This document shows, piece after piece, positions 3,351-19,547 of a stretch of DNA of 43,399 nt; position 1 is the first letter of the stretch, and the number at the start of each line of letters is the position of its first letter. Origin of the DNA: Bacteroidales bacterium (GTDB lineage Bacteria > Bacteroidota > Bacteroidia > Bacteroidales > UBA932); the NCBI GenBank assembly GCA_017626555.1, contig JAGAIM010000172.1:1-43399 (forward strand), in the 5' to 3' direction. The notes under the pieces are model-generated. The model was given only the letters and a program-made list of their open reading frames with translations. It was not told where the DNA came from and did not search any database. The position numbers were made by a program, and so were the translations under genes.

Positions 3351-4661
3351 TCAGATTATCACTCTTTCTATAATAGGTGTCTGGTGACTGTAAGGAATGA
3401 ATGCAAGCGAAGGAATAGGCTTGGTAATTATCAGATTGGCTTTTTTGCCGATGGTAATTGATCCAAGGATGTCGCTGACTCCCATTGCGTATGCAGAGTT
3501 TATAGTGCAGGCATTCAGTGATTGTTCTGGTGTGAGACGCATCCTTATGCATCCTAATGCCATAACGAATCTCATATTTCCGCTCGGACTCGATCCCGGA
3601 TTGTAGTCGGATGCGAGTGCTACAGGAAGGCCTGCTTCTATATAATCCTTTGCCCTGCCGTATGGCAGACCCAGGAAGAATGAACAGCCCGGAAGCATTG
3701 TAGGCATTGTACCGCTTCCACGTAATGCTTCTATTTCAGCATCGGTGGTCTTTTCAAGGTGATCCACAGAGAGGGCGCCATATTTCACGCCCACCTGTAC
3801 TCCACCTGACACTTCCAGTTCGTTTGCGTGGATTTTAGGACGGATGCCGTATTCTGCCGCTTTTTCGAGGATTCTCGCTGTCTCTTCCACTGTGAAGAAG
3901 CCTGAGTCGCAGAACACATCAACGTAGTCTGCAAGGCCTTCTTCTGCCACTTTAGGAAGCATTTCATTACATACGAGATCCACATATTCGCCTTGGCGTC
4001 CTCTGTATGCCCTTCCAACTGCGTGTGCGCCGAGAAAGTTGGCTTTCACAGTAATGGGTGCAGTCTCTTTGATCCTTCTAATGACACGCAGCATCTTCAA
4101 TTCGTCTTCGACTGTAAGGCCGTAGCCGCTCTTGATTTCTACTGCTCCTGTACCCATTGCCATAATCTCCTTCACTCTCTCCATCGACTGTCTGTACAGT
4201 TCGTCTTCTGATGTGTTGTGAAGAAGATCGGCCGAATTGAGGATGCCTCCGCCTCTGGCCGCAATCTCCTCGTAACTCAGTCCGGCTATTTTGTCGCGGA
4301 ATTCACCGTCGCGGCATCCGGCATACACTATGTGCGTGTGGCTGTCGCAAAAACAAGGCAGTACGAATCCTCCCTTGGCATCTATATATTCAATATTTGC
4401 CTCGCGGCTGCCGGATACTGTTGTACAGGGAACGACCCCTCCCACTTCGTGGGTCCCTCCCCCTGCGGCCAGGGGGGTAGCACGGTTCCCTGTACAACAG
4501 TATCCGGCAGCCTCCCCAAAGTCAGTGATGATTCCGTCTTCGATTACCAGATATGCATTCTCGATGCACTCCACCCGGTTCATCGCCTCACCTTCCAATT
4601 TCAGGACTCCCTCCGGCAGTATCCCTGCCAATGTACCTATATTATATATGATCGTCTTCAT
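3351..4661 (-). CDS. hutI: Imidazolonepropionase with an in-frame palindromic insertion
   Basis: HutI hydrolyses 4-imidazolone-5-propionate to N-formimino-L-glutamate, the third step of histidine degradation, in the cytoplasm. The 436-residue product shows the amidohydrolase signature DSHTHIVYAG (metal ligands His108 and His110), a later HAVG, HANE and VDHLEK, and the SDYNPG segment near the C-terminus typical of this family. Residues about 51-86 do not fit the family: they are encoded by a 107-bp palindromic element (see 4406-4512) in the small N-terminal beta domain, before the conserved DAKGGFVLP strand. Without them the length would be about 400 residues, the usual size. The start codon overlaps the hutH stop by one base (TAATG), so the two are translationally coupled. 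Activity with the insertion is likely but unproven. Confidence 0.93.
   Translation of the reverse strand: MKTIIYNIGTLAGILPEGVLKLEGEAMNRVECIENAYLVIEDGIITDFGEAAGYCCTGNRATPLAAGGGTHEVGGVVPCTTVSGSREANIEYIDAKGGFVLPCFCDSHTHIVYAGCRDGEFRDKIAGLSYEEIAARGGGILNSADLLHNTSEDELYRQSMERVKEIMAMGTGAVEIKSGYGLTVEDELKMLRVIRRIKETAPITVKANFLGAHAVGRAYRGRQGEYVDLVCNEMLPKVAEEGLADYVDVFCDSGFFTVEETARILEKAAEYGIRPKIHANELEVSGGVQVGVKYGALSVDHLEKTTDAEIEALRGSGTMPTMLPGCSFFLGLPYGRAKDYIEAGLPVALASDYNPGSSPSGNMRFVMALGCIRMRLTPEQSLNACTINSAYAMGVSDILGSITIGKKANLIITKPIPSLAFIPYSHQTPIIERVII
4406..4512 (-). repeat. In-frame palindromic element inside hutI
   Basis: Two perfect 28-bp inverted arms (4406-4433 and 4485-4512) flank a 51-bp core (4434-4484). 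The core holds two small hairpins: CCCAC-TTC-GTGGG, and CCCCCTG-CGGC-CAGGGGG. On the coding strand arm 1 encodes HutI residues 51-59, the core residues 60-76 and arm 2 residues 77-85, with no stop. The core begins CGT GCT ACC and ends GGG GTC, as does the core of the truB insertion (18885-18941), and is read in the same frame. The arms are unrelated to the truB arms. It lies where HutI proteins normally have a short loop. Recent insertion is inferred from the perfect arms. Confidence 0.85.
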
Positions 4662-6133
4662 TATCTGAGGAATTCCACTGACTTTTCAATAAGCGGATGC
4701 ATATATCTGTCATCATCTATGAACGGAACGACCTTGCGGTATCCTGCAAAGATCTTCTCGATGCTCCAGGATGATCTGAGTGGCCTGCGGAACTCCAATG
4801 CCTGAGCGGCATTGAATAGTTCGATTGCAAGTACGCGCTCTGTATTGTCAACAACGCGCACAAGTTTGGTCGCAGCATTTGCTCCCATACTTACGTGGTC
4901 TTCCTGACCTTGTGACGACGGTATCGAATCGGCAGAGGCAGGCATACAAAGACCTTTGCTCTGACTTACGATTGATGCAGCAGTATATTGAGGAATCATA
5001 AATCCGCTGTTCAGGCCTGGCTTTGCCACGAGGAAATTAGGAAGCCCTCTCTGGCCGGAAATCAACTTGTATATCCTTCTTTCCGAGATGTTGGAGAGTT
5101 CCGACAGGGCAAGGGTCAGCATATCGATAGGAATGGCAATCGGTTGGCCGTGGAAGTTTCCTGCAGAAATGATCAGATCCTCGTCAGGGAATACGGTCGG
5201 ATTGTCTGTCGCACTGTTGATTTCGATCTCAATTACAGATTTCACGTATCTGATAGTGTCCTTGCTTGCTCCGTGCACCTGCGGGATGCATCTGAATGAA
5301 TATGGATCCTGGACGTGAACCTTTTTCTGCTTTATGATTTCGCTGCCTTCAAGCAATTCCCTGAAGCGTGCAGCAGTCTCGATCTGTCCTTTATGCGCAC
5401 GCACCTCGTGTACCTGAGGGTAGAAAGGCTCAATACGTCCGTCGTATGCTTCCAATGACATTGCTCCGATCTTGTCAGCCCAGTCTGAAAGTCTTTCAGC
5501 CTGGATAAGTGACCAGACGGCGTGTGCACTCATAAACTGGGTTCCGTTGAGAAGAGCCAGTCCTTCTTTTGATTTGAGACGTATCGGTTCCCAGCCCAGT
5601 TCCGTCCATAGTTCGCAGGCCTGACGGACTTCTCCTTTGTAGTTTACCTCTCCCATACCGATCAGAGGCAGGCAGAGATGGGCTAATGGAGCGAGGTCGC
5701 CTGATGCTCCGAGCGAGCCCTGCTGATATACTACAGGAAGTATATCGTTGTTGAACATATCGATCAGTCTCTGAACTGTCTCAAGTTGCACACCGGAATA
5801 GCCGTACGACAGTGACTGAATCTTGAGCAAGAGCATAAGTTTCACGATTTCCGGACGAACCGTTTCGCCTGTGCCGCAGGCGTGCGACATCACCAGATTG
5901 TGCTGCAGTTGGGAAAGATCTTCCGCAGGAATGGTAATGTTGCAGAGTGAGCCGAATCCTGTGGTGACTCCATATACAGGACGGCCTATGTCTTCCATCT
6001 TGGTGTCCAGGAACTTACGGCATTTTACAATCGCTTCTTCAGCCTCTTTGCCGAGTTCAAGACGTATTCCTCCCGAGAGAAGTGTCTTGACATAGTCGAT
6101 GGTGAGTTTCTTGTGGGAAATTATGTGGTTCAT
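4661..6133 (-). CDS. hutH: Histidine ammonia-lyase
   Basis: HutH removes ammonia from L-histidine to give trans-urocanate, the first step of the Hut pathway. The Ala-Ser-Gly triad that cyclises into the MIO electrophile is at residues 143-145 (GSLGASGDLAPLAH). The active-site tyrosine region VYGVTTGFG (Tyr54) and the conserved QGQEDHVSMG segment near the C-terminus are intact. I place the start at 6133 (490 residues, normal for the family). The upstream in-frame ATG at 6157 lies almost on the probable -7 element at 6159-6166, so it would fall at or before the transcription start. The stop overlaps the hutI start by one base. hutH is separated from hutU by an oppositely oriented wzi-like gene, so hutHI forms its own transcription unit. 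Confidence 0.95.
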   Translation of the reverse strand: MNHIISHKKLTIDYVKTLLSGGIRLELGKEAEEAIVKCRKFLDTKMEDIGRPVYGVTTGFGSLCNITIPAEDLSQLQHNLVMSHACGTGETVRPEIVKLMLLLKIQSLSYGYSGVQLETVQRLIDMFNNDILPVVYQQGSLGASGDLAPLAHLCLPLIGMGEVNYKGEVRQACELWTELGWEPIRLKSKEGLALLNGTQFMSAHAVWSLIQAERLSDWADKIGAMSLEAYDGRIEPFYPQVHEVRAHKGQIETAARFRELLEGSEIIKQKKVHVQDPYSFRCIPQVHGASKDTIRYVKSVIEIEINSATDNPTVFPDEDLIISAGNFHGQPIAIPIDMLTLALSELSNISERRIYKLISGQRGLPNFLVAKPGLNSGFMIPQYTAASIVSQSKGLCMPASADSIPSSQGQEDHVSMGANAATKLVRVVDNTERVLAIELFNAAQALEFRRPLRSSWSIEKIFAGYRKVVPFIDDDRYMHPLIEKSVEFLR

Positions 6134-6158
6134 ATCAGTCTGATGTTTGTAAATCACA

Positions 6159-6188
6159 CAAAGATATGAAAATATATCATTATCTTTG
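6159..6188. promoter_or_regulatory. Divergent promoter region between hutHI and the wzi-like gene
   Basis: TATCTTTG, the Bacteroidetes -7 consensus TAnnTTTG, occurs twice: on the minus strand at 6166-6159 facing hutH, and on the plus strand at 6181-6188 facing the wzi-like gene. No clear TTTG -33 element is visible for either. The plus-strand copy ends only 5 nt before the wzi ATG, implying a very short or absent leader. Confidence 0.5.
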
Positions 6189-6193
6189 CCGCT

Positions 6194-7720
6194 ATGGAAA
6201 GAAATAATCGTTTAGCACATATATTGGCTCTGGTGTCGTTCCTGATCATTTCCGCCTCAGCGGATGCGCAGAACGGGTGGACTGCCGGTTGGGAAGGAAA
6301 GGCTGTTCTCAATGGTGGAACCGGAGAATATCTGCCCTTCTGGCAGAGAACAGGATATGACGGAGTTATGCCATATACTTCGGCTGCAGTCCTGTCTGCA
6401 GGTGCCGATCTGAAATATGAGGCCTCGAACGGGATATATTTCGAGACCGGAACCAATCTTGTCGGATATGTCAATGCGGCGAGTCAATGGAACCTTCCCG
6501 GGGCAGGGGGCATAGTTGACAGGCTTTATGTCTCCGGAGGCTGGAAAATGCTCCATCTTGATGTGGGTCTGAAGCCTCGTGTCCGGGAACTGGGCGATCT
6601 TTCCATTATGGGTGGAAATCTGGTGCTGACAGGAAACGCACGCAATCTCCCTGGTATAAATGCCTGGTCGGACTGGATATATTTCGAGAAGGGACATTGG
6701 TTCGGTATCAGGGGCAATTTCGCTCATTATCAAACTTTTGATACCAGATGGATCCAGGGTGCCAGGATTCACAACAAGTCCTTTGCGTTCAAGGTGGCGT
6801 TGGGACGTAAGGTGGATTTCGAAATGGGGCTTGACCATTGGGCTCAGTGGGGAGGTACATCTCCTGCAGCAGGATCGAGACCGGCATCTTTCAAGGATTA
6901 TGTAAGGGTCATTTTCGGAAAGAGCGGGGGTAGTGATGCGACTGTTTCCGACCAACTCAATGCATTGGGAAACCATCTCGGCAGGGAATATATCCGCCTT
7001 GCCTGGAGGGCTTCATCCTTCACTATGCATCTCCAGTATGATATGCCTTTTGAGGACGGTGGTCAGATCATAAAGACCAATCCTATGCCTGACGGAGTTT
7101 ATACGCTGAAATTGTCATTCAATGACAGGGACAGATTCGTTACGGATGTACTGTATGAATTCATACATACCACCTGGCAGGGTGGAACAGTTCACGACAG
7201 ACCGGCTACAGAGGAGGAAATGACAAAGGATTATGGTGAATACAAATATTGGCAGGATCCCGATCATCATTATTACGGAAGATATGTCGTAGGAGGACTG
7301 GACGATTATTTCAACAACGGTGAATATGGTTCCGGCTGGACTTATTTCGGCAGGACTCTGGGACTCCCGCTGATCATTCCTTCCGCCCCGGGTGAAAATG
7401 GTGTGACTATGGGAGTAGCCTGCAACCGTATCCGTGCCCATCATTTCGGAATAAAAGGAGTTGCCTGGACTGTACCTTATTCATTCAAAGCGACTTATAG
7501 CAGCAACTGGGGTAGATATTCAGATAGCGTGACAGGATTCTTCGCCGCTCACCCTAAACAATTGTCACTTGCCCTCGAAGTGGAACTTGGAGAACAAGTG
7601 ACAAATATTCCATTGACTTTCGCCATAGGCGCTTACGGTGATTTCGGCAAGGTATATCGCAACAGTGCCGGCCTGAGTCTCAGAGTATGCTATGGCGGTT
7701 CCAAGGCATTGAAGCGTTAG
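6194..7720 (+). CDS. Wzi-family outer-membrane beta-barrel protein
   Basis: A 508-residue protein with an N-terminal signal peptide (hydrophobic about residues 8-23, likely cleavage after ADA). It is rich in alternating aromatic strands typical of a barrel, with a composition and layout matching the Bacteroidetes 'capsule assembly Wzi family' proteins: the GIYFETGTNL and WIYFEKGHWFGIRGNFAHYQ strands. E. coli Wzi anchors capsular polysaccharide at the cell surface; in Bacteroidota the homologues often lie outside capsule loci and their role is unclear. Here the gene is embedded opposite to the hut genes, between hutH and hutU. Its TAG stop shares two bases with the TAA stop of hutU on the other strand, leaving no room for a terminator between them. 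Confidence 0.75.
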   Translation: MERNNRLAHILALVSFLIISASADAQNGWTAGWEGKAVLNGGTGEYLPFWQRTGYDGVMPYTSAAVLSAGADLKYEASNGIYFETGTNLVGYVNAASQWNLPGAGGIVDRLYVSGGWKMLHLDVGLKPRVRELGDLSIMGGNLVLTGNARNLPGINAWSDWIYFEKGHWFGIRGNFAHYQTFDTRWIQGARIHNKSFAFKVALGRKVDFEMGLDHWAQWGGTSPAAGSRPASFKDYVRVIFGKSGGSDATVSDQLNALGNHLGREYIRLAWRASSFTMHLQYDMPFEDGGQIIKTNPMPDGVYTLKLSFNDRDRFVTDVLYEFIHTTWQGGTVHDRPATEEEMTKDYGEYKYWQDPDHHYYGRYVVGGLDDYFNNGEYGSGWTYFGRTLGLPLIIPSAPGENGVTMGVACNRIRAHHFGIKGVAWTVPYSFKATYSSNWGRYSDSVTGFFAAHPKQLSLALEVELGEQVTNIPLTFAIGAYGDFGKVYRNSAGLSLRVCYGGSKALKR

Positions 7721-9744
7721 AGCAGTTTTCTGATCATTGCTTCATCCGCGAGGTTAGGCAGAGTGACTTTCAGGCCAGGAGTACGCTCCATTTCACGCTT
7801 GATGGCGTGCATTGCGCCTTCGTTGCGTGCCCAACTGCGTCGTGCTATACCGTTGTTCACGTCCCAAAGGAGCATTTCCTGAATGTGTCTGTCGGAATCT
7901 ACCGAACCATCGATGACCATACCGAAGCCTCCATTCATAACTTCGCCCCATCCGACGCCGCCACCATTATGGATCGATACCCAGGTAGCGCCTCTGAATC
8001 CGTCTCCGATCACGTTATGTACTGCCATATCGGCACAGAACTGAGAGCCGTCATATATGTTCGAGGTCTCGCGGAACGGTGAATCAGTTCCTGATACGTC
8101 GTGGTGGTCGCGTCCAAGGACGATCGGAGCAGTGATTTCGCCATTGCGGATTGCCTCATTGAATGCAAGCGCTATCTTTGTACGGCCTTCGCAATCGGCA
8201 TAAAGGATACGGGCCTGCGAGCCAACCACGAGGTTGTTTCTGCCTGCTTCCTCGATCCATCTGATATTGTCCATCATCTGTCCCTGGATTTCCTCCGGTG
8301 CTTCTCTCATTATATCTCTTAGCACCTTGGCTGCGATTGCATCGGACTTTGCCAGGTCTTCCGGCTTTTCCGACATACATACCCATCTGAACGGACCGAA
8401 TCCATAGTCAAAGAAGAGAGGCCCCATAATGTCCTGTACGTATGACGGATAACGGAATCTTCCGTCTTCGCGGAGTACATCTGCGCCTGCTCGTGATGCC
8501 TCAAGAAGGAATGCATTGCCATAGTCGAAGAAATACATTCCCTTGTCAGCCAGACGGTTGACTGCAGCAGCGTGTCTGCGGAGCGATTCCTGTACACACT
8601 CCCTGAACCTTTCCGGTTCTTCTGCCATCATCCTGTTGGACTCCTCGTATGAATAGCCCACAGGATAGTATCCTCCAGCCCAAGGATTGTGGAGCGATGT
8701 CTGGTCTGATCCGAGATCGACGTGTATATTTTCGTCGGCCAGTCTTTCCCAAAGATCCACTACATTGCCCTGATAAGCGATCGAGACTACTTCCTTGTTT
8801 TCTACGGCCTTGCGGATACGTGGAATGAGTTCGTCGAGATCTTCGTGTATTTCATCCACCCATCCTTGGCTGTGCCTTTTGTGGGCGGCGTGAGGGTTTA
8901 CTTCAGCGCATACGCTGACAACACCGGAAATGACACCAGCCTTAGGCTGCGCTCCCGACATACCTCCGAGACCGGCAGTGACGAAAAGCATACCTTTCAT
9001 ATTATCCTCTGTGCCGGCGAGTCCGCGAGCCTTGAGTTGCTTGCGGGCTGCGTTCATTACCGTGATCGTAGTTCCGTGTACGATGCCCTGAGGACCGATG
9101 TACATATATGATCCTGCTGTCATCTGTCCGTACTGGGATACTCCGAGTGCATTGAACTTCTCCCAATGATCCGGCTTCGAGTAATTAGGAATCACCATTC
9201 CGTTGGTAACGATCACGCGTGGGGCATCCTTGTGGCTTGGGAAGAGTCCCAGAGGATGACCTGAATACATAACCAGAGTCTGTTCGTCAGTCATAGTGGC
9301 CAGATACTGCATAACCAGACGGTACTGAGCCCAGTTCTGGAACACCGCTCCGTTACCTCCGTATGTGATGAGTTCGTGAGGGTGCTGTGCCACGCGGTAG
9401 TCCAGGTTGTTCTGGATCATAGCCATAATGGCTGCCGCCTGACGTGATTTTGCCGGATATTCGTCGATGGGACGTGCGTACATCTCGTAATCAGGACGGA
9501 AACGGTACATATATATACGACCGTAGTCCTTGAGTTCCTGTGCAAACTCGGCAGCAAGTATTTCGTGATGCTCTGCGGGGAAATAACGCAGGGCATTCTT
9601 TATTGCCAGCACCTTTTCCTCCGCGCTGAGAATCTCCTTGCGCTTTGGTGCGTGGTTCACTTCTGTAGAGTACGGCTTAGGCTCCGGAAGTACGGCCGGA
9701 ATACCGTTCAGAATATCTTCGTGAAACTTGTTTATGTTGAGCAT
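7717..9744 (-). CDS. hutU: Urocanate hydratase
   Basis: HutU adds water to urocanate to form 4-imidazolone-5-propionate, using tightly bound NAD+ as electrophile. The 675-residue product is of the longer urocanase type with an N-terminal extension before the conserved LITYGGNGAVFQNW and GQMTAGSYMYIGPQGIVHGT segments. The glycine-rich NAD site TAGLGGMSGAQPKA and the DQTSLHNPWAGGYYP motif are present. Towards the C-terminus there is GRDHHDVSGTDSPFRET and SIHNGGGVGWGEVMNGGFG. It is downstream of ftcD in the same orientation with a 99-bp spacer that contains a repeat (9775-9827). Its 3' end overlaps that of the convergent wzi-like gene. Confidence 0.96.
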   Translation of the reverse strand: MLNINKFHEDILNGIPAVLPEPKPYSTEVNHAPKRKEILSAEEKVLAIKNALRYFPAEHHEILAAEFAQELKDYGRIYMYRFRPDYEMYARPIDEYPAKSRQAAAIMAMIQNNLDYRVAQHPHELITYGGNGAVFQNWAQYRLVMQYLATMTDEQTLVMYSGHPLGLFPSHKDAPRVIVTNGMVIPNYSKPDHWEKFNALGVSQYGQMTAGSYMYIGPQGIVHGTTITVMNAARKQLKARGLAGTEDNMKGMLFVTAGLGGMSGAQPKAGVISGVVSVCAEVNPHAAHKRHSQGWVDEIHEDLDELIPRIRKAVENKEVVSIAYQGNVVDLWERLADENIHVDLGSDQTSLHNPWAGGYYPVGYSYEESNRMMAEEPERFRECVQESLRRHAAAVNRLADKGMYFFDYGNAFLLEASRAGADVLREDGRFRYPSYVQDIMGPLFFDYGFGPFRWVCMSEKPEDLAKSDAIAAKVLRDIMREAPEEIQGQMMDNIRWIEEAGRNNLVVGSQARILYADCEGRTKIALAFNEAIRNGEITAPIVLGRDHHDVSGTDSPFRETSNIYDGSQFCADMAVHNVIGDGFRGATWVSIHNGGGVGWGEVMNGGFGMVIDGSVDSDRHIQEMLLWDVNNGIARRSWARNEGAMHAIKREMERTPGLKVTLPNLADEAMIRKLL

Positions 9745-9774
9745 AACTAATTGTCTAATAGATATTTATGTGTT

Positions 9775-9827
9775 CTACGTGCTGCATCAAGTACGGCACG
9801 TGGTTTGTGTAATCTGTTGAGGGTTAG
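9775..9827. repeat. Intergenic hairpin repeat, copy A (between ftcD and hutU)
   Basis: A hairpin ACGTGC - 13-nt loop - GCACGT (9777-9801) is followed after 7 nt by GTAATCTGTTG (9809-9819) and then GGGTTAG. Copies at 17064-17125 and 18525-18578 have the same plan; copy C shares the stem sequence, loop length and spacing. In each case the motif lies 16-33 nt beyond the stop of a minus-strand gene, here ftcD. Confidence 0.6.
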
Positions 9828-9843
9828 AAGGTTAGGCTCCTCC

Positions 9844-11550: not shown

Positions 11551-11570
11551 AAATATTTCTTTTCAGTTAT

Positions 11571-13199
11571 CTATTCAATTGTAATTCGTCCGTCCTTGGA
11601 GGCAGTGATCTCTCCTTTGCTGTTGTTTGATGCCAGATGACGGAAATATTCTCCATAATAATCCCGGATCATTTCGTGGGAATCTGTCCTGCTGATGGCT
11701 TTGTCCAAGCCGTAACTGCCGGAATTCACAAGATAGTCGATGGTGGCTATGGTGTATGTCCTGTCATTTTCTATCTGCTTTCCTCCGACTGTAACAGATT
11801 TGACTTTCCCATCGGATATCACCAGTCTTACACCTGCATTGATCGGCAGTCCTCCATTTGCGGCAACATATTCGAACAGATTCCTGAGATCTTTGCCTTT
11901 CATTGTGACAAGTGACAATGTGTTGTCGAATGGATAGACAGCATAGATGTCGCCTAATGTCAGATCTCCTTTTGATATTTCAGCCCTGATTCCTCCGCTG
12001 TTGTATATGCTGACATCTGCATCGACATTGAAATATTCCTTGGCCATCCATATCAGACCATCTCCGGTAAGATTGCCCAGAGGGCTTTCCGGCTGGCCTT
12101 TCCTTATGGCGCGAGGACAATATCCTATCACTTCGCTCATTTTTTCCCTGACAGTGGCGCTGTATGCATCGATCATTGATGAGAAGTCCGGATCAGTCTC
12201 GCTGTCCAGCCTGTTGTCCACCGGGATAAGTCTGTATGTAAAGGATGGTTTTCCTGCCTCATCGAGCCTGATCTTGGCATATCCCAGACAAATGCCTTTG
12301 CTTCCGGTCTGTACTATCGGGACTTTGTCCCCGTCCAGGTTAGCGACATAATCGGCTGAGTTGAGGAATGTATGTGTGTGTCCTCCGATGATCATATCTA
12401 TGTGTCTGGTATTCATTGCGATACCACGATCATAGTAGTAGATGTCACTGTCACGGTAATAGCCCAGATGGGATAGGGCTATGATAATGTCCGCTCCTTG
12501 TTCCTGCAGTTTTTCCGTCTCTTCGTCGGCGATGTTTATGGCGTTCTGCCATTCCACTCCTTCGCAGGCTGTAGGATCGACCAGATTCTGCAGCCTGACG
12601 TTAAGACCGATGAATCCTACCTTTACCTTTCCTGCTTCCAGTATGGTGGATTTGAGGATATATGGAGCGATGCTTGTACTGCTGAAGTCATAGTTGGATG
12701 CGACAACGGGGACTTTGCTCATAGCAAGCATATCTCCGAGACCTGTCATTTTCTTATCAAATTCGTGATTACCCAGAGTCCTGACATTGTAACCCAGTTC
12801 ATCAAGTACCATCATTTCAACGACTCCGTTCAGGAGACTGAAATAATAAGTGCCCTGAACCAGATCTCCCGCATCTGCGAGGAGCACTGCAGGTTCGGCC
12901 TTTCTGACACTGTCAACAAGCGCCTTGATTCTTTTGACACCGCCTCTGTCGGCATTGTAAGTCTCATCCTTGCTGAGTGGCTCGATCTGACTGTGGATGT
13001 CGTTGGTGAAAAGGATGACGAATTCTTCCGGTCCCTTTTCCGGCTCTGGTTCGGGCTCCGGTTCGGGTTCTGGCTCCGGATTGAGGCCATTATTGTTTTC
13101 AATCTCCTCCTCTTGCTTGACTTCTGGTTTTTCGCAAGAAGGCAGTACCACCAATATCAGTGACAATATCAAGATGATGATGCGTTTTGAAAGTGTCAT
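11571..13199 (-). CDS. Lipoprotein 5'-nucleotidase / metallophosphoesterase
   Basis: A 542-residue protein of the UshA/5'-nucleotidase family, expected to hydrolyse nucleotides or related phosphoesters outside the cytoplasm. From the chosen start a lipoprotein signal ends at LPSC (Cys22). An acidic stretch and about seven Glu-Pro repeats follow as a rigid spacer. The metallophosphoesterase domain has FTNDIHSQ, LADAGDLVQG, TLGNHEFD and GGHTHTFL, covering the usual dinuclear metal ligands. The C-terminal nucleotidase domain includes YNSGGIRAEI and VYPFDNTL. I use the ATG at 13199 rather than 13226, because 13226 touches the probable -7 element (13228-13235) and the shorter form gives a proper signal peptide. 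It leads the ftcD-hutU unit; the metabolic link is not obvious. Confidence 0.88.
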   Translation of the reverse strand: MTLSKRIIILILSLILVVLPSCEKPEVKQEEEIENNNGLNPEPEPEPEPEPEPEKGPEEFVILFTNDIHSQIEPLSKDETYNADRGGVKRIKALVDSVRKAEPAVLLADAGDLVQGTYYFSLLNGVVEMMVLDELGYNVRTLGNHEFDKKMTGLGDMLAMSKVPVVASNYDFSSTSIAPYILKSTILEAGKVKVGFIGLNVRLQNLVDPTACEGVEWQNAINIADEETEKLQEQGADIIIALSHLGYYRDSDIYYYDRGIAMNTRHIDMIIGGHTHTFLNSADYVANLDGDKVPIVQTGSKGICLGYAKIRLDEAGKPSFTYRLIPVDNRLDSETDPDFSSMIDAYSATVREKMSEVIGYCPRAIRKGQPESPLGNLTGDGLIWMAKEYFNVDADVSIYNSGGIRAEISKGDLTLGDIYAVYPFDNTLSLVTMKGKDLRNLFEYVAANGGLPINAGVRLVISDGKVKSVTVGGKQIENDRTYTIATIDYLVNSGSYGLDKAISRTDSHEMIRDYYGEYFRHLASNNSKGEITASKDGRITIE

Positions 13200-13227
13200 T
13201 TCCTGCCAGATAAATTGATACAACATC

Positions 13228-13235
13228 CAAAGTTA
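13228..13235 (-). promoter_or_regulatory. Probable -7 element for the nucleotidase-ftcD-hutU unit
   Basis: The minus strand reads TAACTTTG, matching TAnnTTTG, about 29 nt upstream of the ATG at 13199. No exact -33 TTG is found at the usual 19-nt spacing. Confidence 0.4.
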
Positions 13236-13320
13236 AACATTTTCGTCAAATCTCGCAGTCTTTTTTGATTTTAATGATTTCTGCCTTGGGAATAATTCTA
13301 TGCCTGTCCCTGGATATATG

Positions 13321-13350
13321 AAAAAGGACCGGCATTATCTGCCAGTCCTT
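13321..13350 (-). terminator. Terminator of pnp
   Basis: AAGGAC-c-GGC (13324-13333) pairs with GCC-a-GTCCTT (13341-13350) around a 7-nt loop. On the minus strand the stem runs into TTTTT, 23 nt after the pnp stop. Confidence 0.85.
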
Positions 13351-13372
13351 CATTCATTATTTGGTCTTCAGA

Positions 13373-15697
13373 TTAGAACATTTCCGGTTCGTTGTTCTGC
13401 TCTGGAGCCTCAGCCGGACGCTCACGACGTGGACCTCTTGGGCCTCTGTCATCGCGGCGTGGGCCACGGTTGTCATCACGACGTGGTCCGCGGTTGTCGC
13501 GACGGTCGTTGTCACGGCGTGGACCTCTGTCACCTCTTGGCTTACGCTCAGGCTCTACATAACCCTCAGGCTTCTCGATGAGTGCCTTGCGTGAAAGTCT
13601 CATCTTGCCGGTCTTCTCGTCGATCTCGAGGAGTTTTACATCCACCTCGTCACCTACGTGAAGAACATCCTCTACCTTATCTGTCTTCTTCCAGTCGATC
13701 TCTGAAACGTGGAGGAGGCCTTCCTTACCAGGAAGAATCTCAACGAATGCGCCGAATTCAAGGATCGATACGATCTTTCCGTGATATACGGTTCCAACTT
13801 CCGGAACTGCGGTGATGCCGTTGATCCAACCCAGAGCCTTGTCCATAGACTCCTTGTCGAGACCGAAGATATCAACAACACCTTCTGATACGCCATTGAC
13901 CTGCTCCTCTGTGATTGTGATGGTAGTGCCGGTCTCACGCTGGATACGCTGGATAGTCTCGCCACCCTTTCCGATGATAGCACCGATGAATTCGCCTGCA
14001 ACGCGGATCTGAACCATACGAGGTACAAACTCCTTGTACTCTGCACGAGGCTCGCTGATGGTCTTCATCATCTCGCCCATAATGTGCATACGGCCCTGGC
14101 GTGCCTGCTCGAGAGCCTTCTCGAGAACGTCGTATGAAAGACCGTCCACCTTGATGTCCATCTGAGTGGCAGTGATACCGTCCTTAGTACCTGTCACCTT
14201 GAAGTCCATATCTCCGAGGTGGTCCTCGTCGCCGAGGATGTCGGTAAGGATTGCATAGCGCTCGTTAGGATTGTCCTTGTCTGTGATAAGACCCATTGCT
14301 ACACCTGCAACTGGCTTCTTGATCTTCACACCTGCATCCATAAGGGCGAGGCAGCCTGCACATACTGTAGCCATTGAAGATGAACCGTTTGACTCGAGGA
14401 TATCTGAAACTACGCGAACTGCGTATGGATTCTCCGGAGCCATAGGGATCATAGGCTTGAGTGCCCTGTAGGCAAGGTTTCCGTGTCCGATCTCACGACG
14501 GCCTACACCGCGCTGAGGACGTGCCTCACCAGTAGAGAACGGAGGGAAATTATAGTGGAGTACAAACTGGTCTGTGTCCTGGATGAGAACCTCGTCACGC
14601 TCCTTCATATCAAGTTTGGTACCGAGGGTAACAGTTGAAAGTGACTGAGTCTCACCACGGGTGAATATCGCTGAACCGTGAGCGCAAGGGAGATAGTCTG
14701 TCTCGCACCAGATAGGGCGTACAGTTGTGGTGTCACGGCCGTCGAGGCGTACACCCTCGTCGAGGATCATATTTCTCATCGCTGCCTTCTCGACTGCGTG
14801 ATAATATCTCTCGATCATCATCCTCTTCTCTTCCTGCTCCTCTTCTGGGAGAGTTGCATAGAACTCTTCCTTGAGTGCTTCGAATGCGTCTGAACGCTCG
14901 TGCTTAGCCGATCCTGACTTGGCGATTGCGTAGCATCTGTCGTAGCAGAACTCCTGGATAGCCTTGCGGAGATCCTCGTCGTTCTCCTCGTGGCAGTAAG
15001 CCCTCTTCTGAGTCTTGCCTACAGCCTCGGTGAGTTCCATCTGTACCTTGCAGTGCTTCTTGATCTCCTCGTGAGCGAACTTGATAGCCTCAAGCATATC
15101 GTGCTCGCTTACTTCGTTCATCTCACCCTCCACCATCATAATGTTGTCGTATGTAGCGGCAACCATAATGTCGAGGTCTGCATCAGCCATTTCGCTGAAG
15201 TTAGGATTGATCTTGAGTTCGCCACCGATTCTTGCTACACGTACCTCTGAGATTGGACCCTCGAAAGGAATGTCGCTGACTGCGAGTGCAGATGATGCAG
15301 CAAGACCAGCGAGTGCATCCGGCTGGATGTCTTTCTCAGCAGAGATAAGGTTTACGTTTACGAAAACCTCTGCGTGGAAATCCTCAGGGAAAAGTGGTCT
15401 GAGGGCACGGTCAACAAGACGTGCGATAAGAATTTCATAATCGGAAGCCTTTCCTTCACGCTTCATAAAGCCTCCTGGGAAACGTCCCGCAGAAGCATAT
15501 TTCTCCTTGTAGTCCACCTGAAGCGGCATAAAGTCAACGTCCTCTTTTGCGTCTTTTGCGCAAGTGACTGTCGCGAGGAGCATTGTACCGCCCATCTTTA
15601 CGACTACAGAACCGTCAGCCTGCTTTGCAAGTTTTCCGGTTTCGATTTCAATTATCCTTCCGTCGGATAATTCGATTGTCTTTTTTACGATATTCAT
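13373..15697 (-). CDS. pnp: Polynucleotide phosphorylase with an arginine-rich C-terminal tail
   Basis: PNPase degrades RNA 3'-to-5' by phosphorolysis and can add tails. The 774-residue product has two RNase PH domains, a KH domain ([14 protein letters not shown]), and an S1 domain ([21 protein letters not shown]). After the S1 domain a tail of about 67 residues follows (13376-13576), dominated by RGP-RRD-type repeats (about 20 arginines) and ending in EPEMF. Such a disordered basic tail is absent from E. coli PNPase and may add RNA binding. I start at 15697 (MNIVKK): the frame is open upstream to 15778, but those 27 residues do not resemble PNPase and lie in the leader. It follows rpsO, the classic rpsO-pnp order, but is separated from it by a strong terminator. 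Confidence 0.96.
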
Positions 15698-15867
15698 TTT
15701 TGCGTTTTCAACCTGCCTCCCCCTATGGGAGTCATTATACAAATTGTCATTTTCCGCCCATACGGAACTCATTTTCAAGTTCCTACATACAGTTACGTAT
15801 TATATATTGTTCTGCTCCATCAGCGCCGCAGGTTGATGTGTTAGCGCCTTGGAAGCGTCTTTGCGTG
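15698..15867 (-). other. Long leader region of pnp
   Basis: About 170 nt separate the rpsO terminator from the pnp start. No TAnnTTTG element is evident. One short hairpin, CTCCC-CCTAT-GGGAG, is visible about 20 nt upstream of the start. The pnp promoter must lie here unless transcription reads through from rpsO. Confidence 0.35.
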
Positions 15868-15905
15868 AAAAAAGGGGGAGTCCCATCTTGTGGGCATTCC
15901 CCCTT
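15868..15905 (-). terminator. Terminator of rpsO
   Basis: An 8-bp outer stem AAGGGGGA / TCCCCCTT (15872-15879, 15898-15905) has an inner CCCA / TGGG pairing. On the minus strand it continues into a run of T residues, 24 nt past the rpsO stop. Confidence 0.88.
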
Positions 15906-15929
15906 CGCCGGTTCCTACTATGATGTAGC

Positions 15930-16205
15930 CTATCGACGGAGACCAAGTTCCTTAACGATAGTTCTGTATCTCTCAATGTCAATTGCCTTGAGATAATCAA
16001 GTACACGACGACGCTTACCTACAAGTTTAAGAAGCGAACGACGAGTCACATAATCGTGCTTGTTGCTCTTAAGATGCTCGGTAAGGTGAGCGATACGGTA
16101 GGAAAATAAAGCCACCTGGCTCTCTGGAGAACCTGTGTCAGTATTAGACTTTCCGTACTTCTCGAAAAGCTCCTGTTTTTTCTCTGGTGCTAAATATTCA
16201 GCCAT
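15930..16205 (-). CDS. rpsO: 30S ribosomal protein S15
   Basis: S15 is a primary 16S rRNA-binding protein of the small-subunit platform. The 91-residue product is close to the usual 88-89. It has the conserved core: [23 protein letters not shown], then [23 protein letters not shown], with the rRNA-binding histidine-aspartate and arginine residues. It is transcribed from a well-defined promoter (16277-16306) with a leader of about 65 nt containing a hairpin, and it ends at a strong terminator before pnp. In several bacteria S15 represses its own mRNA through leader structures; the leader here may serve that role, but the structure is not recognisably one of the published types. Confidence 0.97.
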
Positions 16206-16243
16206 CTTTTGAAAAAATTAGAGGTTAATTAATAAATTTTCGT

Positions 16244-16275
16244 GCCCGCACCCGACTAAGGGGTTTTAAGCGGGC
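16244..16275 (-). promoter_or_regulatory. Hairpin in the rpsO leader, possible S15 autoregulatory site
   Basis: GCCCGC (16244-16249) pairs with GCGGGC (16270-16275), with possible inner ACCC / GGGT pairing. It lies at the very 5' end of the predicted rpsO transcript, about 40 nt before the start codon. An autoregulatory function is inference from the known behaviour of S15 in other bacteria. Confidence 0.35.
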
Positions 16276-16276
16276 G

Positions 16277-16306
16277 CAAAGATACGCATAAATTCCAAGA
16301 AAACAA
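16277..16306 (-). promoter_or_regulatory. rpsO promoter (Bacteroidetes-type)
   Basis: On the minus strand TTG (16306-16304), then exactly 19 nt, then TATCTTTG (16284-16277). This matches the Bacteroidetes primary sigma consensus TTG-N19-TAnnTTTG and is the best-formed promoter in the window. Confidence 0.75.
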
Positions 16307-16353
16307 TCGGATGAGATTAAATTTTCCATATAATTTGTATATTCGCTTTTGAA

Positions 16354-17031
16354 ATGATTAATGTGTCGGAGAAAATAATCAATGATCCTCAGATCGGGCT
16401 GATTAAGTTTCGCAAAAGTTTGCGGAGCCGAAGCATCAGTATCCGTGTGCATCCTGTAAAAGGCGTGAGCGTCACAGTGCCGTATATCGTGCCGTACGCT
16501 GCGGCTCTGGCTTTTTTCAAGGTCCGCCGTGACTGGGTGATGCAGACCATCGCACGACAAAAGGAGAGGGTCGGCAGTGCCGATATGCCTTCCGAGGCCG
16601 AAATCGAGGCTCTCCGCCGTCAGGCCAAGGCCGAACTTCCGGGAAGGCTGGCCGAACTGGCGGCGTGCTATGGGTTTTCATATAACAGAGTGACAGTCAA
16701 ACATAATGCTTCCAACTGGGGGAGTTGCTCGTCAAAGGGAAATATCAACCTCAATCTGAATATTGTCCGTCTTCCGCGCATTCTTCAGGATTATATTCTG
16801 CTGCACGAACTCTGCCATCTGAGGCATCAGGATCACGGCCAGGCCTTCCATCTGCTTCTGGAGCACGTCCTTACAGACCATATTCTGAAACTGATGTCCG
16901 GGGATATGCCCATTTCTGAAGGTGATCGGGCTCTGGTGGTGGAAATTGCGCGCAAAGGAGCATCCTCAAAGGCACGATATCCGTTGGATTATACCATCAC
17001 TCGCGCAATCAAGCAATACCCTCTGGTATAG
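16354..17031 (+). CDS. YgjP-like zinc metallopeptidase domain protein
   Basis: A 225-residue protein of the YgjP/DUF45 (SprT-like M48-related) family. The zinc site is HELCH (residues about 151-155) followed by HQDHGQAFH, with the preceding SNWGSCSSKGNINLNL strand that is diagnostic for this family. The N-terminal third carries the IKFRKSLRSRSISIRVHPVKGVSV beta segment common to YgjP proteins. No signal peptide is seen, so it is probably cytoplasmic. The physiological role is not established; homologues often lie near DNA-repair or type I restriction genes, which are absent here. It diverges from rpsO and converges on the MATE gene. Confidence 0.85.
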   Translation: MINVSEKIINDPQIGLIKFRKSLRSRSISIRVHPVKGVSVTVPYIVPYAAALAFFKVRRDWVMQTIARQKERVGSADMPSEAEIEALRRQAKAELPGRLAELAACYGFSYNRVTVKHNASNWGSCSSKGNINLNLNIVRLPRILQDYILLHELCHLRHQDHGQAFHLLLEHVLTDHILKLMSGDMPISEGDRALVVEIARKGASSKARYPLDYTITRAIKQYPLV

Positions 17032-17063
17032 TGGTGGCGCCTAATCGTCTGATTGCTAGTGCT

Positions 17064-17125
17064 TTACGCGAAATGCCTGCTGCAGAAGTACAGCAGGCAT
17101 TATACGTAAGTTGTTGATGTACAGT
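17064..17125. repeat. Intergenic hairpin repeat, copy B (between the YgjP-like and MATE genes)
   Basis: A perfect 11-bp stem AATGCCTGCTG / CAGCAGGCATT (17072-17082, 17091-17101) is followed 4 nt later by GTAAGTTGTTG (17106-17116) and ATGTACAG. The tail is identical to that of copy C over 11 nt. The stem sequence differs from copies A and C. It lies between two convergent genes and could also act as a bidirectional terminator, although T-tracts are weak on both sides. Confidence 0.6.
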
Positions 17126-17143
17126 GTTTTGAGCGTCACCGGA

Positions 17144-18472
17144 TCAGATGCTGCGGTTCTTCCAGCGTCCGCTGCGCATATACCACCAACTGCAGATCAG
17201 GAGCATACCGGCATATACGTGTTCCGCTGTCCAGCATACCGCTACATCTAGTTTGAGGATTCCGATGATGATGGTACAATATATCATATAAACCGCCAGG
17301 GCGATAAGTTCGAGTCTGAATGCGGTTTTGGTGCTTCCTGTGCCGGATACTGCGAGGAAGAATACCTGTCCGCCGACATTTACGAAATATGAGGATGCCA
17401 TAACGACCATAGCGGGAATCGAGGCCGTAATGAGGTCTGGGATGTCGGTGTATATTCTTGCAATGGCTTCAGGGAAGAGACAGATGATCAGGATCAGCGC
17501 ACTGACGAGTCCGTATGACAGTTTCAGGATACGTTTGACCAGTGACATCACTTTGTCCTGATGTCCTTCGCCTATCATATTGCTGACCAGTGTGCTGCAG
17601 GTTGATGAAAATGCCTGGAGCACGACCCATATCAGTCCGGATACTCCTCTGGTTATGTTTGATATGGCAAGGGCGCGTTCCCCGAGATGCTCGATGTAGA
17701 GGAAGAAGATCAACCAGGTCGAGACCGAGATTGTATGCTGGATCATTGTCCATACGCACACGGGCATCATTCCCTTGAGTTCGTCCTTGTCGAACTTTGC
17801 CGCTTTGTCCAGACCGTATTTTCTGCGGTCACATCTGAGGACTGTATATACTATGAAGAATATGAGCGAGACCAGTTCGGCGAGGCTTGAGCCTATGGCC
17901 GCTCCTGTAATTCCTAAAGCCGGGCATCCGAATTTTCCGAAAATCAGGATCCAGTTGAATAAGATGTTCGATAGCACCATCACTATCGAGTTGAGTGTCA
18001 GGGTCTTGGTCTGGGTTGTGCCGACATAGAATGCTCTGAACATTGCGGTTATGAAGGCGAATACCATACCCGGGAGCCTCCACCGGACATAACTCAGTGC
18101 TGCATTATACACAGCCGCGGATGATACCATAAATTTCATCATCCACGGACTCAACAGTTCGGACAGCAGGATTATGATTCCGGCAAGCCCGAGCACGAAG
18201 TAAAGGCCTGTCCAGAACACCTTTCCGGTCTCCTTGAACCTTCCTTCACCGTTCCGTCGGCCTATGATGATCTGGGCTCCGATGCTGAAGCCGAATCCGA
18301 TCATAAACAGGACCATATAATATACTATGGCGATGGCGGATGCTCCGAGTTCGATTTCGCCGACTCTGCCAAGGAATGCAGTGTCTGTGAGTCCTATCAT
18401 CTGCTCCATCACGAGGCTTATCAGGATAGGGTATGCAACCTTCCAGATGTTCCTGTATGAATATGTTCCCAT
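17144..18472 (-). CDS. MATE-family multidrug efflux transporter
   Basis: A 442-residue polytopic membrane protein with about 12 hydrophobic segments. It begins with the typical MATE N-terminus (WKVAYPILISLVMEQMIGLTDTAFLGRVGE) and has GFSIGAQIIIGRRNGEG in the first half. Internal twofold similarity is expected for this family: the second half restarts at GVSGLIWVVLQAFSSTCSTLVSNMIGEG. MATE proteins export cationic drugs using Na+ or H+ gradients; the substrate here is unknown. I choose the ATG at 18472. The frame stays open to 18628, but the extra 52 residues are hydrophilic, cross a repeat (copy C) and overlap the end of truB. Confidence 0.93.
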   Translation of the reverse strand: MGTYSYRNIWKVAYPILISLVMEQMIGLTDTAFLGRVGEIELGASAIAIVYYMVLFMIGFGFSIGAQIIIGRRNGEGRFKETGKVFWTGLYFVLGLAGIIILLSELLSPWMMKFMVSSAAVYNAALSYVRWRLPGMVFAFITAMFRAFYVGTTQTKTLTLNSIVMVLSNILFNWILIFGKFGCPALGITGAAIGSSLAELVSLIFFIVYTVLRCDRRKYGLDKAAKFDKDELKGMMPVCVWTMIQHTISVSTWLIFFLYIEHLGERALAISNITRGVSGLIWVVLQAFSSTCSTLVSNMIGEGHQDKVMSLVKRILKLSYGLVSALILIICLFPEAIARIYTDIPDLITASIPAMVVMASSYFVNVGGQVFFLAVSGTGSTKTAFRLELIALAVYMIYCTIIIGILKLDVAVCWTAEHVYAGMLLICSWWYMRSGRWKNRSI

Positions 18473-18524
18473 AATCGTTCTTTGATGTTTTCCTATATTG
18501 CTGATAGTCAATTCATTCCTGAAA

Positions 18525-18578
18525 CTACGTGCCGTCAAAAGGGGAGCACGTGGTTTTGGTAAGTTGTTGGCTGTCAGG
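18525..18578. repeat. Intergenic hairpin repeat, copy C (between truB and MATE)
   Basis: ACGTGC (18527-18532) and GCACGT (18546-18551) form a stem around a 13-nt loop, extended by an outer C-G and a T-G pair. GTAAGTTGTTG follows after 7 nt (18559-18569), then GCTGTCAG. Stem, loop length and spacer length equal those of copy A; the tail equals copy B. Confidence 0.6.
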
Positions 18579-18611
18579 GTGATATGATTTGCGCTGTGCG
18601 TGGAACTGATC

Positions 18612-19547
18612 CTAGGAAAGCAAGGCAATGACCTGCTCTACCGTGAGGGCATTGCTGATGCGGAATATTCCGCTGCAACTGCGCTGAAGGCTGTCCAGGT
18701 GGGCTCCGCTGCCAAGCGCCTCTCCGAGGTCACGGGCGAATGCGCGGACGTATGTACCTTTGCTGCAGGCTATTCTTACCACAGCACGCGGCAGACCCAG
18801 TTCCGAATTGTCGGTCACATTGATTCTGCTGGAAGCATCCGCTGTTTGAAGGTTGGATGAGGAATCCTGGACGTTCGCTTCGCTCACCCCACCACTTCGC
18901 TTCGCTCGTGGTCCCCCCGCTTCCGTGCCGCGGGTGGCACGGTCCTCGATTTCCTCATCCCGACCTTCAAACTCCATCAGTTCCAATTCCGTGATATTGA
19001 TCCGTGAGACTCTGATCAATTCCTCAGCAACCTCATCAAGAGTCTTGCCTTCCTTATGCAGTTTTCTTGCAAGTTCGTAGGCACGGACTCCATCGACCGA
19101 TTTGGCGGAGAACAGGGGAGCGATCTGATCCTGCTCGCCTATGAATGATGGTAAGGCCGAGGCCACAGCATCTGCATCGATATGCTGATAGGGGAAGAAT
19201 CTGTCGATTTCTTTTTCCAGATCGTATGAAGGTGTTGTCGCTCCGAATGTGATGCCGGCTACATATTCCTTATGATGTGACTGAAGCCATTCTGCAAGTT
19301 TGGTAGCCTTTCCGATGCATACAAGAAGAACTCCTGTTGCAAGCGGATCCAGAGTGCCGGCGTGCCCGACTTTCAGATTCTTTTTGCCGAAATGACGGAT
19401 AGCGGCGAACTTGACCTTTCTGATCACGTCCGCCGATGTCCATCTGTATGGTTTGTCTATAGGGATTATTATCCCTTCCGGATAGTCGTTGATGTCCCTT
19501 GAAAGGGTTTTGTCTTCCGGAGTAAGAATCTTTGCGCTTATTTCCAT
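18612..19547 (-). CDS. truB: tRNA pseudouridine-55 synthase with an in-frame palindromic insertion
   Basis: TruB isomerises U55 of the tRNA T-loop to pseudouridine. The catalytic aspartate is Asp67 in HAGTLDPLATGVLLVCIGKATKL, preceded by the IPIDKPYRWTSADVIRKV start motif. The late conserved RIACSKGTYVRAFARDLGEALGSGAHL is intact. The 311-residue chain is about 60 residues longer than typical Bacteroidetes TruB. The extra part (about residues 192-250) lies between the ELELMEFEG strand and LPRAVVRIACSKGTY, in a loop, and contains the palindromic element 18845-18971. Deleting exactly 60 codons between two diverged direct repeats would restore a normal sequence. truB starts directly after the rpiB stop, with no gap, so it is read from the rpiB promoter. 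Confidence 0.94.
   Translation of the reverse strand: MEISAKILTPEDKTLSRDINDYPEGIIIPIDKPYRWTSADVIRKVKFAAIRHFGKKNLKVGHAGTLDPLATGVLLVCIGKATKLAEWLQSHHKEYVAGITFGATTPSYDLEKEIDRFFPYQHIDADAVASALPSFIGEQDQIAPLFSAKSVDGVRAYELARKLHKEGKTLDEVAEELIRVSRINITELELMEFEGRDEEIEDRATRGTEAGGPRAKRSGGVSEANVQDSSSNLQTADASSRINVTDNSELGLPRAVVRIACSKGTYVRAFARDLGEALGSGAHLDSLQRSCSGIFRISNALTVEQVIALLS
18798..19008 (-). repeat. Diverged direct duplication flanking the truB insertion
   Basis: CAGTTCC begins at 18798 and again at 18978, exactly 180 nt (60 codons) apart. Each is followed by a related stretch ending around ATTGAT, with small length differences. In protein terms RINITELEL before the element is matched by RINVTDNSELGL after it. 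This suggests that part of the truB sequence was duplicated with the insertion. Confidence 0.5.
18845..18971 (-). repeat. In-frame palindromic element inside truB
   Basis: Outer arms: TTTGAAGGT (18845-18853) with ACCTTCAAA (18963-18971), and GGATGAGGAA (18855-18864) with TTCCTCATCC (18951-18960). GGAC/GTCC pairs further in (18869-18872 with 18942-18945). The core 18885-18941 contains CCAC...GTGG and GTGCC...GGCAC hairpins. On the coding strand the core starts CGT GCC ACC (Arg203-Ala-Thr) and ends GGG GTG (Gly220-Val221), in the same frame and with the same ends as the hutI element. The arms are less perfect than in hutI, suggesting an older copy. Confidence 0.8.

Follow-up and report, generated by a model that had tools for sequence, protein, structure and literature searches.

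Results

A family of short GC-rich hairpin elements, found in uncultured gut Bacteroidales and mainly in one of their genera, is dispersed within and between genes, and its complementary outer arms are specific to each site. With modest confidence, we regard these elements as non-autonomous hairpins resembling REPs and RPEs, for which an inverted copy of the flanking host DNA is made at or soon after insertion. The observation in hutI and truB of the window (the whole stretch of DNA analysed, 43,399 nt) is real, and the family is larger than first noted.

Element copies of the window

The first copy lies in a variable N-terminal loop of hutI (imidazolonepropionase; ORF at 3351..4661, minus strand, 436 aa). 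The ORF scores 396 bits against TIGR01224 (cut-off 298), its frame is open across the element, and the best PDB match of HutI begins at residue 90, which is past the insert. The core occupies 4434..4484 of the minus strand (51 nt), runs on the gene strand from CGTGCTACCC to GGGGTC and forms two small GC hairpins in the centroid fold. The gene-downstream arm (4406..4433) and the gene-upstream arm (4485..4512) are 28 nt each and perfectly complementary with no mismatches, exactly as the initial annotation had described for this core. The fold-back score is 28, compared to a maximum of 14 in 100 two-base-block shuffles of the window, and the DNA fold of the element has z = -10.5.

The second copy lies in truB (tRNA pseudouridine-55 synthase; ORF at 18612..19547, minus strand, 311 aa; TIGR00431 173 bits, cut-off 151), and the best PDB match of TruB omits residues 171-256, where the insert lies. 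The core had been placed at 18885-18941, which is too short; it spans 18873..18941 of the minus strand (69 nt), from CGTGCCACCCGCGGCACGG to GCGAAC on the gene strand. The gene-downstream arm (18845..18872, 28 nt) is decayed and shows by eye a gapped pairing, with mismatches and two indels, to the gene-upstream arm (18942..18971, 30 nt), which encodes FEGRDEEIED. Complementarity within a locus, claimed for both genes, is therefore perfect in hutI and weaker in truB. The truB fold-back is absent from the ungapped list of the window scan at a score of at least 13, and its fold z of -1.7 was computed on 18855-18964, a stretch that cuts the arms. The copy is 94% identical over 81 nt to the miaA copy of the same genome (L007), the core of which is also 69 nt. 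By this homology, the truB copy appears to be a decayed relative of the hutI copy, not above chance when taken alone. The core ends proposed to be shared, with CGT-GCN-ACC encoding Arg-Ala-Thr, are right for both window copies. The truB loop of relatives holds such elements too, and in the wider genus it is also occupied by other core types and other repeats. Across the genus, several hairpin families have landed repeatedly in this loop (L392-L421), and L394 and L398 look like deletion remnants.

Extent of the family

The genome of the window (G000; 3.09 Mb, 222 contigs) contains additional intragenic copies in aroE, an M20 deacetylase gene and miaA, which were found by DNA searches; further copies in the source genome were among the expectations of the initial annotation. 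A gapped DNA pattern for the core had no match in this genome, and a covariance model of five G000 copies, with the arms modelled as pairs, was used instead. The search of the same clade with such a model, as had been proposed, found more copies: 49 of the 61 genus genomes match at E <= 0.01, with 24 places in G000. With stricter filters and a threshold of 0.001, three genomes in a sample of 198 from the order gave a match, namely G000, one genome of the same family and one from another family. Scanning contigs with one core pattern gave 105 stretches. All 80 listed matches are titled as Bacteroidales MAGs, and those of their titles that name a source refer to ruminant caecum, colon or rectum. 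Together with earlier loci, the stretches make up 103 elements distinct in DNA, near-identical copies from close species being retained; 82 have arms scoring at least 12, and 32 have perfect arms of at least 20 nt. In 1.5 Mb of loci chosen for the family or its host genes, there are 144 fold-backs with a score of at least 16.

Several variants were seen. The second hairpin is missing from the cores of L213 and L220. The miaA arms of L220 recur in L224 around a complete core, so loss can affect the inner hairpin by itself. L176, L177, L188, L215 and L273 have long cores (about 90 nt) in which an additional inner hairpin surrounds a CCAGTGG-like centre. Another family, of the GTGACATGCCACCCCC type with long arms, is present in L201, L333 and L047 (near 2627); compared to L201, the other species in L239 retains the left arm without the right arm. 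Other palindromic repeats, GTCATTCTGAGC-like, are found in L119 (hutI of G024), L190 (tilS), L335 and L416 (truB of G006), where they encode loop residues or occupy sites at which the hairpin family inserts in relatives; we take them to have a CGTC-REP appearance.

Gene sites, orientation and frame

Subfamily A has 61 of its 68 elements within nine genes, subfamily B 8 of 35. The resulting 69 intragenic copies, which bear out the claim of a dispersed family with a shared core and in-frame copies inside genes, are distributed over hutI (15), aroE (10), M20 (10), lpxB (9), miaA (9), truB (7), aroK (4), tilS (3) and folC (2). The names hutI, truB and miaA are given by NCBIfam above cut-off and aroE and M20 below it; lpxB, aroK, tilS and folC were named by eye. 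The frames used are -0 (30 copies), +0 (23), +2 (10), -2 (5) and +1 (1), and none of the 69 uses frame -1, in which the A core has a TAG stop. The same orientation and frame, as initially described, hold for the two window copies and the miaA copy of G000, and fail for the aroE and M20 copies of that genome. Constancy across the family had to be given up, since both orientations and five frames occur among the intragenic copies; the frame is set by the site, and neither property is set by the element. Insertion at random with respect to frame, named beforehand as evidence against the proposal, was found in part: the site fixes the frame, and -1 is unseen. Of the A cores with scored arms, 52 of the 54 in genes and 1 of the 7 elsewhere have a length divisible by three. 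For B cores, the counts are 2 of 6 in genes and 11 of 15 elsewhere, so that only A shows a clear frame signal, and the 11 of 15 B cores outside the named genes weaken frame constraint as the cause of such lengths.

Arms compared to cores

The dissociation of arms from cores is clearest within one genome, G007. Eight copies (28 pairs) have a core identity of 0.950 (minimum 0.871; three pairs at 100%) and an inner 5 nt identity of 0.95, and their outer arms are 0.33 alike compared to 0.28 when shuffled. Including two G007 copies with a slightly different core, the outer-arm value is 0.32 over 45 pairs. The G007 copies L284 and L286, which for their core stand outside the eight-copy count, have arms 69% alike. 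The arms are thus not the same everywhere, and their description as unrelated between loci stands for the outer arms and fails for the inner 5 nt (AAAAC and similar), which are shared. To us, near-identical cores with unrelated outer arms suggest that the arms arise during insertion or shortly after it.

The arms have some common character. In the 110 of 144 fold-backs that were oriented (34 left out), a weak consensus, c-a-G-n-G-G-k-T-T-y-n-r-A-A-A-C, extends to about -16, and the outer arms are G-rich (0.44 G and 0.20 C at -24 to -18) while the flanks are balanced. This is unexpected for a random host copy without target preference; the G-richness and weak consensus may represent a target preference or element remains. 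Positional similarity over 1234 arm pairs, mostly from coding copies, shows a scattered excess over composition (e.g. at -11, -12, -20, -21, -23 and -25).

Occupied and empty sites

One site was resolved to the base. The occupied hutI of L182 differs from the unoccupied one of G039 (L122) by 93 nt, made up of two 9-nt ends, a 57-nt core and an 18-nt inverted copy of the upstream flank with one mismatch; the host bases precede the insert and the copy follows it. No target duplication was seen there. G039 groups with occupied species in the hutI tree, and it may have lost an element. The residues L-x-E-V encoded by the aroE upstream arm recur in the unoccupied gene of G021 (WLEEV), with a looser match in G059, and the downstream arm has no counterpart in unoccupied orthologues. 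We had also counted truB as the third site at which the upstream arm resembles host sequence, and dropped it on recheck: Phe is the only residue that its upstream arm has in common with unoccupied orthologues.

Lengths were compared over 72 rows with a net gain of at least 35 nt, smaller gains being invisible. The ranges for hutI and aroE (32 and 10 rows) come from unoccupied orthologues only; rows with an occupied target, e.g. the window, L242, L213 and L059, fall outside them. Measured against the unoccupied L120, L121, L122 and L124, the 12 hutI elements whose cores are 51-57 nt long add 69-96 nt (75-85 for the core plus one arm, 96-113 for the full length), and L273, with a core of 90, gains 126-132 (119 and 148, respectively). 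The 10 aroE rows gain 69-87 nt, except one of 36 (core plus one arm 81-88, full length 105-119). The hutI and aroE gains are mostly close to the core plus one arm, those of the 12 hutI elements mostly falling below the full length. The idea that a copied arm replaces host sequence, drawn from core lengths in multiples of three, is contradicted by these occupied and empty lengths. The M20 copies vary: G000 and G007 both gain 111 nt, near the full 112 and 121 compared to 83 and 89 for the core plus one arm, G021 gains 93, between 83 and 109, and G056 gains 84, which fits the core plus one arm (83). Intergenic G007 copies, compared to unoccupied relatives whose flanks match at only about 67-88%, gain 135 and 160 (L085; full length 122), 136 and 136 (L283; 116) and 90-143 (L071; 122). 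The initial suggestion that one arm is host sequence copied in inverted orientation is thus plausible at aroE and at hutI L182 against G039, and some M20 and intergenic copies misfit. We infer it for sites beyond these two.

Concerted arm change and core flips

Arms of one copy change together. Pairing within a copy is 0.907 over the inner 20 positions (n = 61), whereas it is 0.560 (n = 480) when a left arm is matched with the right arm of another species at its locus; 61 of 67 copies entered the test, which needed an equal inner 4 nt of both arms and counted identical arms once. Between G000 and its relative SIG153, five hutI arm positions differ by eye and both copies are perfectly paired; the M20 copy of SIG153 has five arm mismatches. 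The core is inverted between these two genomes in hutI and aroE and has the same direction in M20, and both core orientations are present within occupied groups of the hutI, aroE and M20 trees. A polarity rule, by which the host arm follows GGGGTT, was dropped once these flips were observed.

The occupied M20 rows form one clade (10 of 10, SH-aLRT 100 in a quick tree). The trees of hutI (15 occupied, 25 empty) and aroE (10 occupied, 26 empty) require four changes each. In scoring, M20 L196 and aroE L180 were set occupied by hand, and hutI L119 and L269 were left unscored. With a single M20 clade and four changes in each other gene, we rejected the explanation that the arms seen at a locus come from a separate insertion in each species. 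PMC8604942 describes template switching between inverted repeats as a source of both homogenised arms and inverted spacers. Flips together with arms changing in step on both sides are as expected of template switching by a DNA polymerase, and a template-switch-like process, as initially proposed, is supported.

Y1 transposases

The initial annotation had suggested looking for a Y1/RAYT-type transposase, and RAYT-like Y1 transposases co-occur with the family. A Y1 domain occurs in 46 of the 61 genus genomes, three times in G000. It is found in 43 of 49 element-positive compared to 3 of 12 element-negative genomes (Fisher p 4.5e-5), in 38 of 39 genomes with at least three element matches compared to 8 of 22 with fewer (p 1.8e-7), and, among the 26 genomes at least 90% complete, in 20 of 23 positive and 0 of 3 negative ones (p 0.008). 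These statistics ignore kinship; three well-supported independent pairs mostly agree, too few for significance. The three diverged RAYT-like genes of G000 (L013 850-1779, L014 880-1977 and L015 880-1896) have REP_Tyr_transpos (NF047646) as their best NCBIfam model at 31-43 bits, below its 80-bit cut-off. The covariance model has no element match in these three loci, and inspection by eye of the palindromes in 32 Y1 loci (about 3 kb each), out of 138 Y1 matches in the 61 genomes, revealed none that we recognised. A RAYT-like Y1 (HUH) transposase is the likeliest mobiliser.

Discussion

In the explanation that we favour, the mobile unit would be the GC-rich hairpin core, mostly of about 45-90 nt, with very short shared ends of about 5-9 nt (AAAAC...GTTTT). 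Upon insertion or shortly afterwards, about 15-25 nt of one host flank would be copied in inverted orientation to the other side, leaving the core inside a palindrome with site-specific arms of mostly 21-32 nt. By the preferred route, the short complementary ends would pair, the recessed 3' end would then copy the adjacent host strand by snap-back or template-switch synthesis, and the copied product would be rejoined to the far flank. Later, polymerase template switching between the arms would maintain their match and flip the core. Within genes, a copy would survive only if the protein loop tolerates it and its length preserves the frame. That the spreading mechanism itself makes the palindrome arms, as first proposed, is something that we too infer. 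A more specific version, in which mobile hairpins build their own arms at each landing site, RAYT-type single-strand integration joining one end while the 3' terminus at the other folds back on the flank, copies about 15-25 nt of it and rejoins, is put forward tentatively, as possible rather than probable. If true, self-built arms mean that insertion is marked by an inverted and not a direct duplication.

The mobile unit could instead be the whole palindrome including its arms, as in RPEs, the arms evolving faster than the core and in step through template switching, which can alter several arm bases at once (PMC8604942). The weak arm consensus and G-richness agree with this, as do the full-length or larger gains of L085, L283 and two M20 copies and the similar arms of L284 and L286. 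We nevertheless consider it unlikely: identical 62-nt cores carry outer arms about as alike as shuffled ones, the aroE upstream arm has host-like residues, L182 against G039 shows an inverted flank copy, and the hutI and aroE gains are mostly below full length. These gains also exceed the core by about one arm, which argues against insertion of a core into the loop of pre-existing host inverted repeats, e.g. terminators, where both arms would be old host sequence. L026 does sit where L066 has a terminator-like hairpin, three further relatives have other palindromes at the intergenic G007 sites, and the unoccupied hutI of L133 and L135 holds another palindrome in the same loop (scores 17 and 14). 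However, the best inverted-repeat scores of the other unoccupied hutI and aroE genes are 6-10 (L136 15, elsewhere in the gene) and those of unoccupied M20 genes 7-12, compared to 11-31 in scored occupied ones. Such an origin is already disfavoured in genes and seems to us very improbable overall.

The pairing of the arms could also be kept by selection for a DNA or RNA hairpin through compensatory mutation, and not by template switching. The within-copy pairing of 0.907 against 0.560 is equally expected from such selection, but the core flips, a described product of template switching (PMC8604942), are left unexplained by it, and the same genes retain copies whose arms pair poorly (aroE L180 and L268; miaA L067 and L181). 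We think this explanation improbable. Site-differing arms on near-identical cores preserve a trace of how a REP- or RPE-like palindrome moved, and the recurrent flips and matched changes of the arms within housekeeping genes are a natural record of what seems to be bacterial template switching. Several palindromic families occupy the same small set of protein loops, which are places where selfish DNA can yield new protein segments.

Comparison with known systems

In the Rickettsia palindromic element, the whole palindrome including its arms is the repeated sequence. The Bacteroidales element shares only the core and about five end bases between copies, its outer arms are site-specific (0.33 compared to 0.28 shuffled, with cores at 0.95, in the eight G007 copies), and its core flips in place. 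REPs and RPEs are short palindromic repeats located between genes and in frame inside genes (PMC3733652); RPEs and CGTC-tagged REPs, as described there, resemble our family as dispersed short palindromes, both intergenic and in-frame intragenic. CGTC-tagged repeats have the tag at one end (PMC3733652), and by eye no CGTC tag was seen at the ends of A cores, which start with CGTG and end with GGGGTT or GGGGTC. GTAG REPs and REPINs with RAYT are likewise GC-rich non-autonomous hairpins, and more copies of our elements go with RAYT-like Y1 genes. In contrast to GTAG REPs, GTAG was not found at the 5' end of the palindrome; it occurs only in the CTACC subfamilies, 3' of hairpin 1, whereas the REP tag lies on the other side. 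No Bacteroidales copy was seen beside the Y1 genes examined, and the RAYT model matches of the three G000 proteins are below cut-off.

Arm homogenisation and spacer inversion are shared with quasipalindromes, described for yeast coding DNA (PMC8604942) and RNA hairpins (PMC8794818). The spacer of those is no dispersed element, whereas the Bacteroidales spacer is a dispersed core at many sites. The family departs from MITEs in that its shared ends are only about 5-9 nt and the one resolved site lacks a target-site duplication, and Rfam has no match in the window over the gathering score. Mitochondrial double-hairpin elements are GC-rich double hairpins at many sites and resemble our hairpins in this respect, in another compartment; we know of no site-specific arms in them. 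Among the titles and abstracts of the open-licence PMC literature, we recognised neither a Bacteroidales counterpart nor site-specific arms. We file the family as a REP/RPE-like variant that is a member of neither class.
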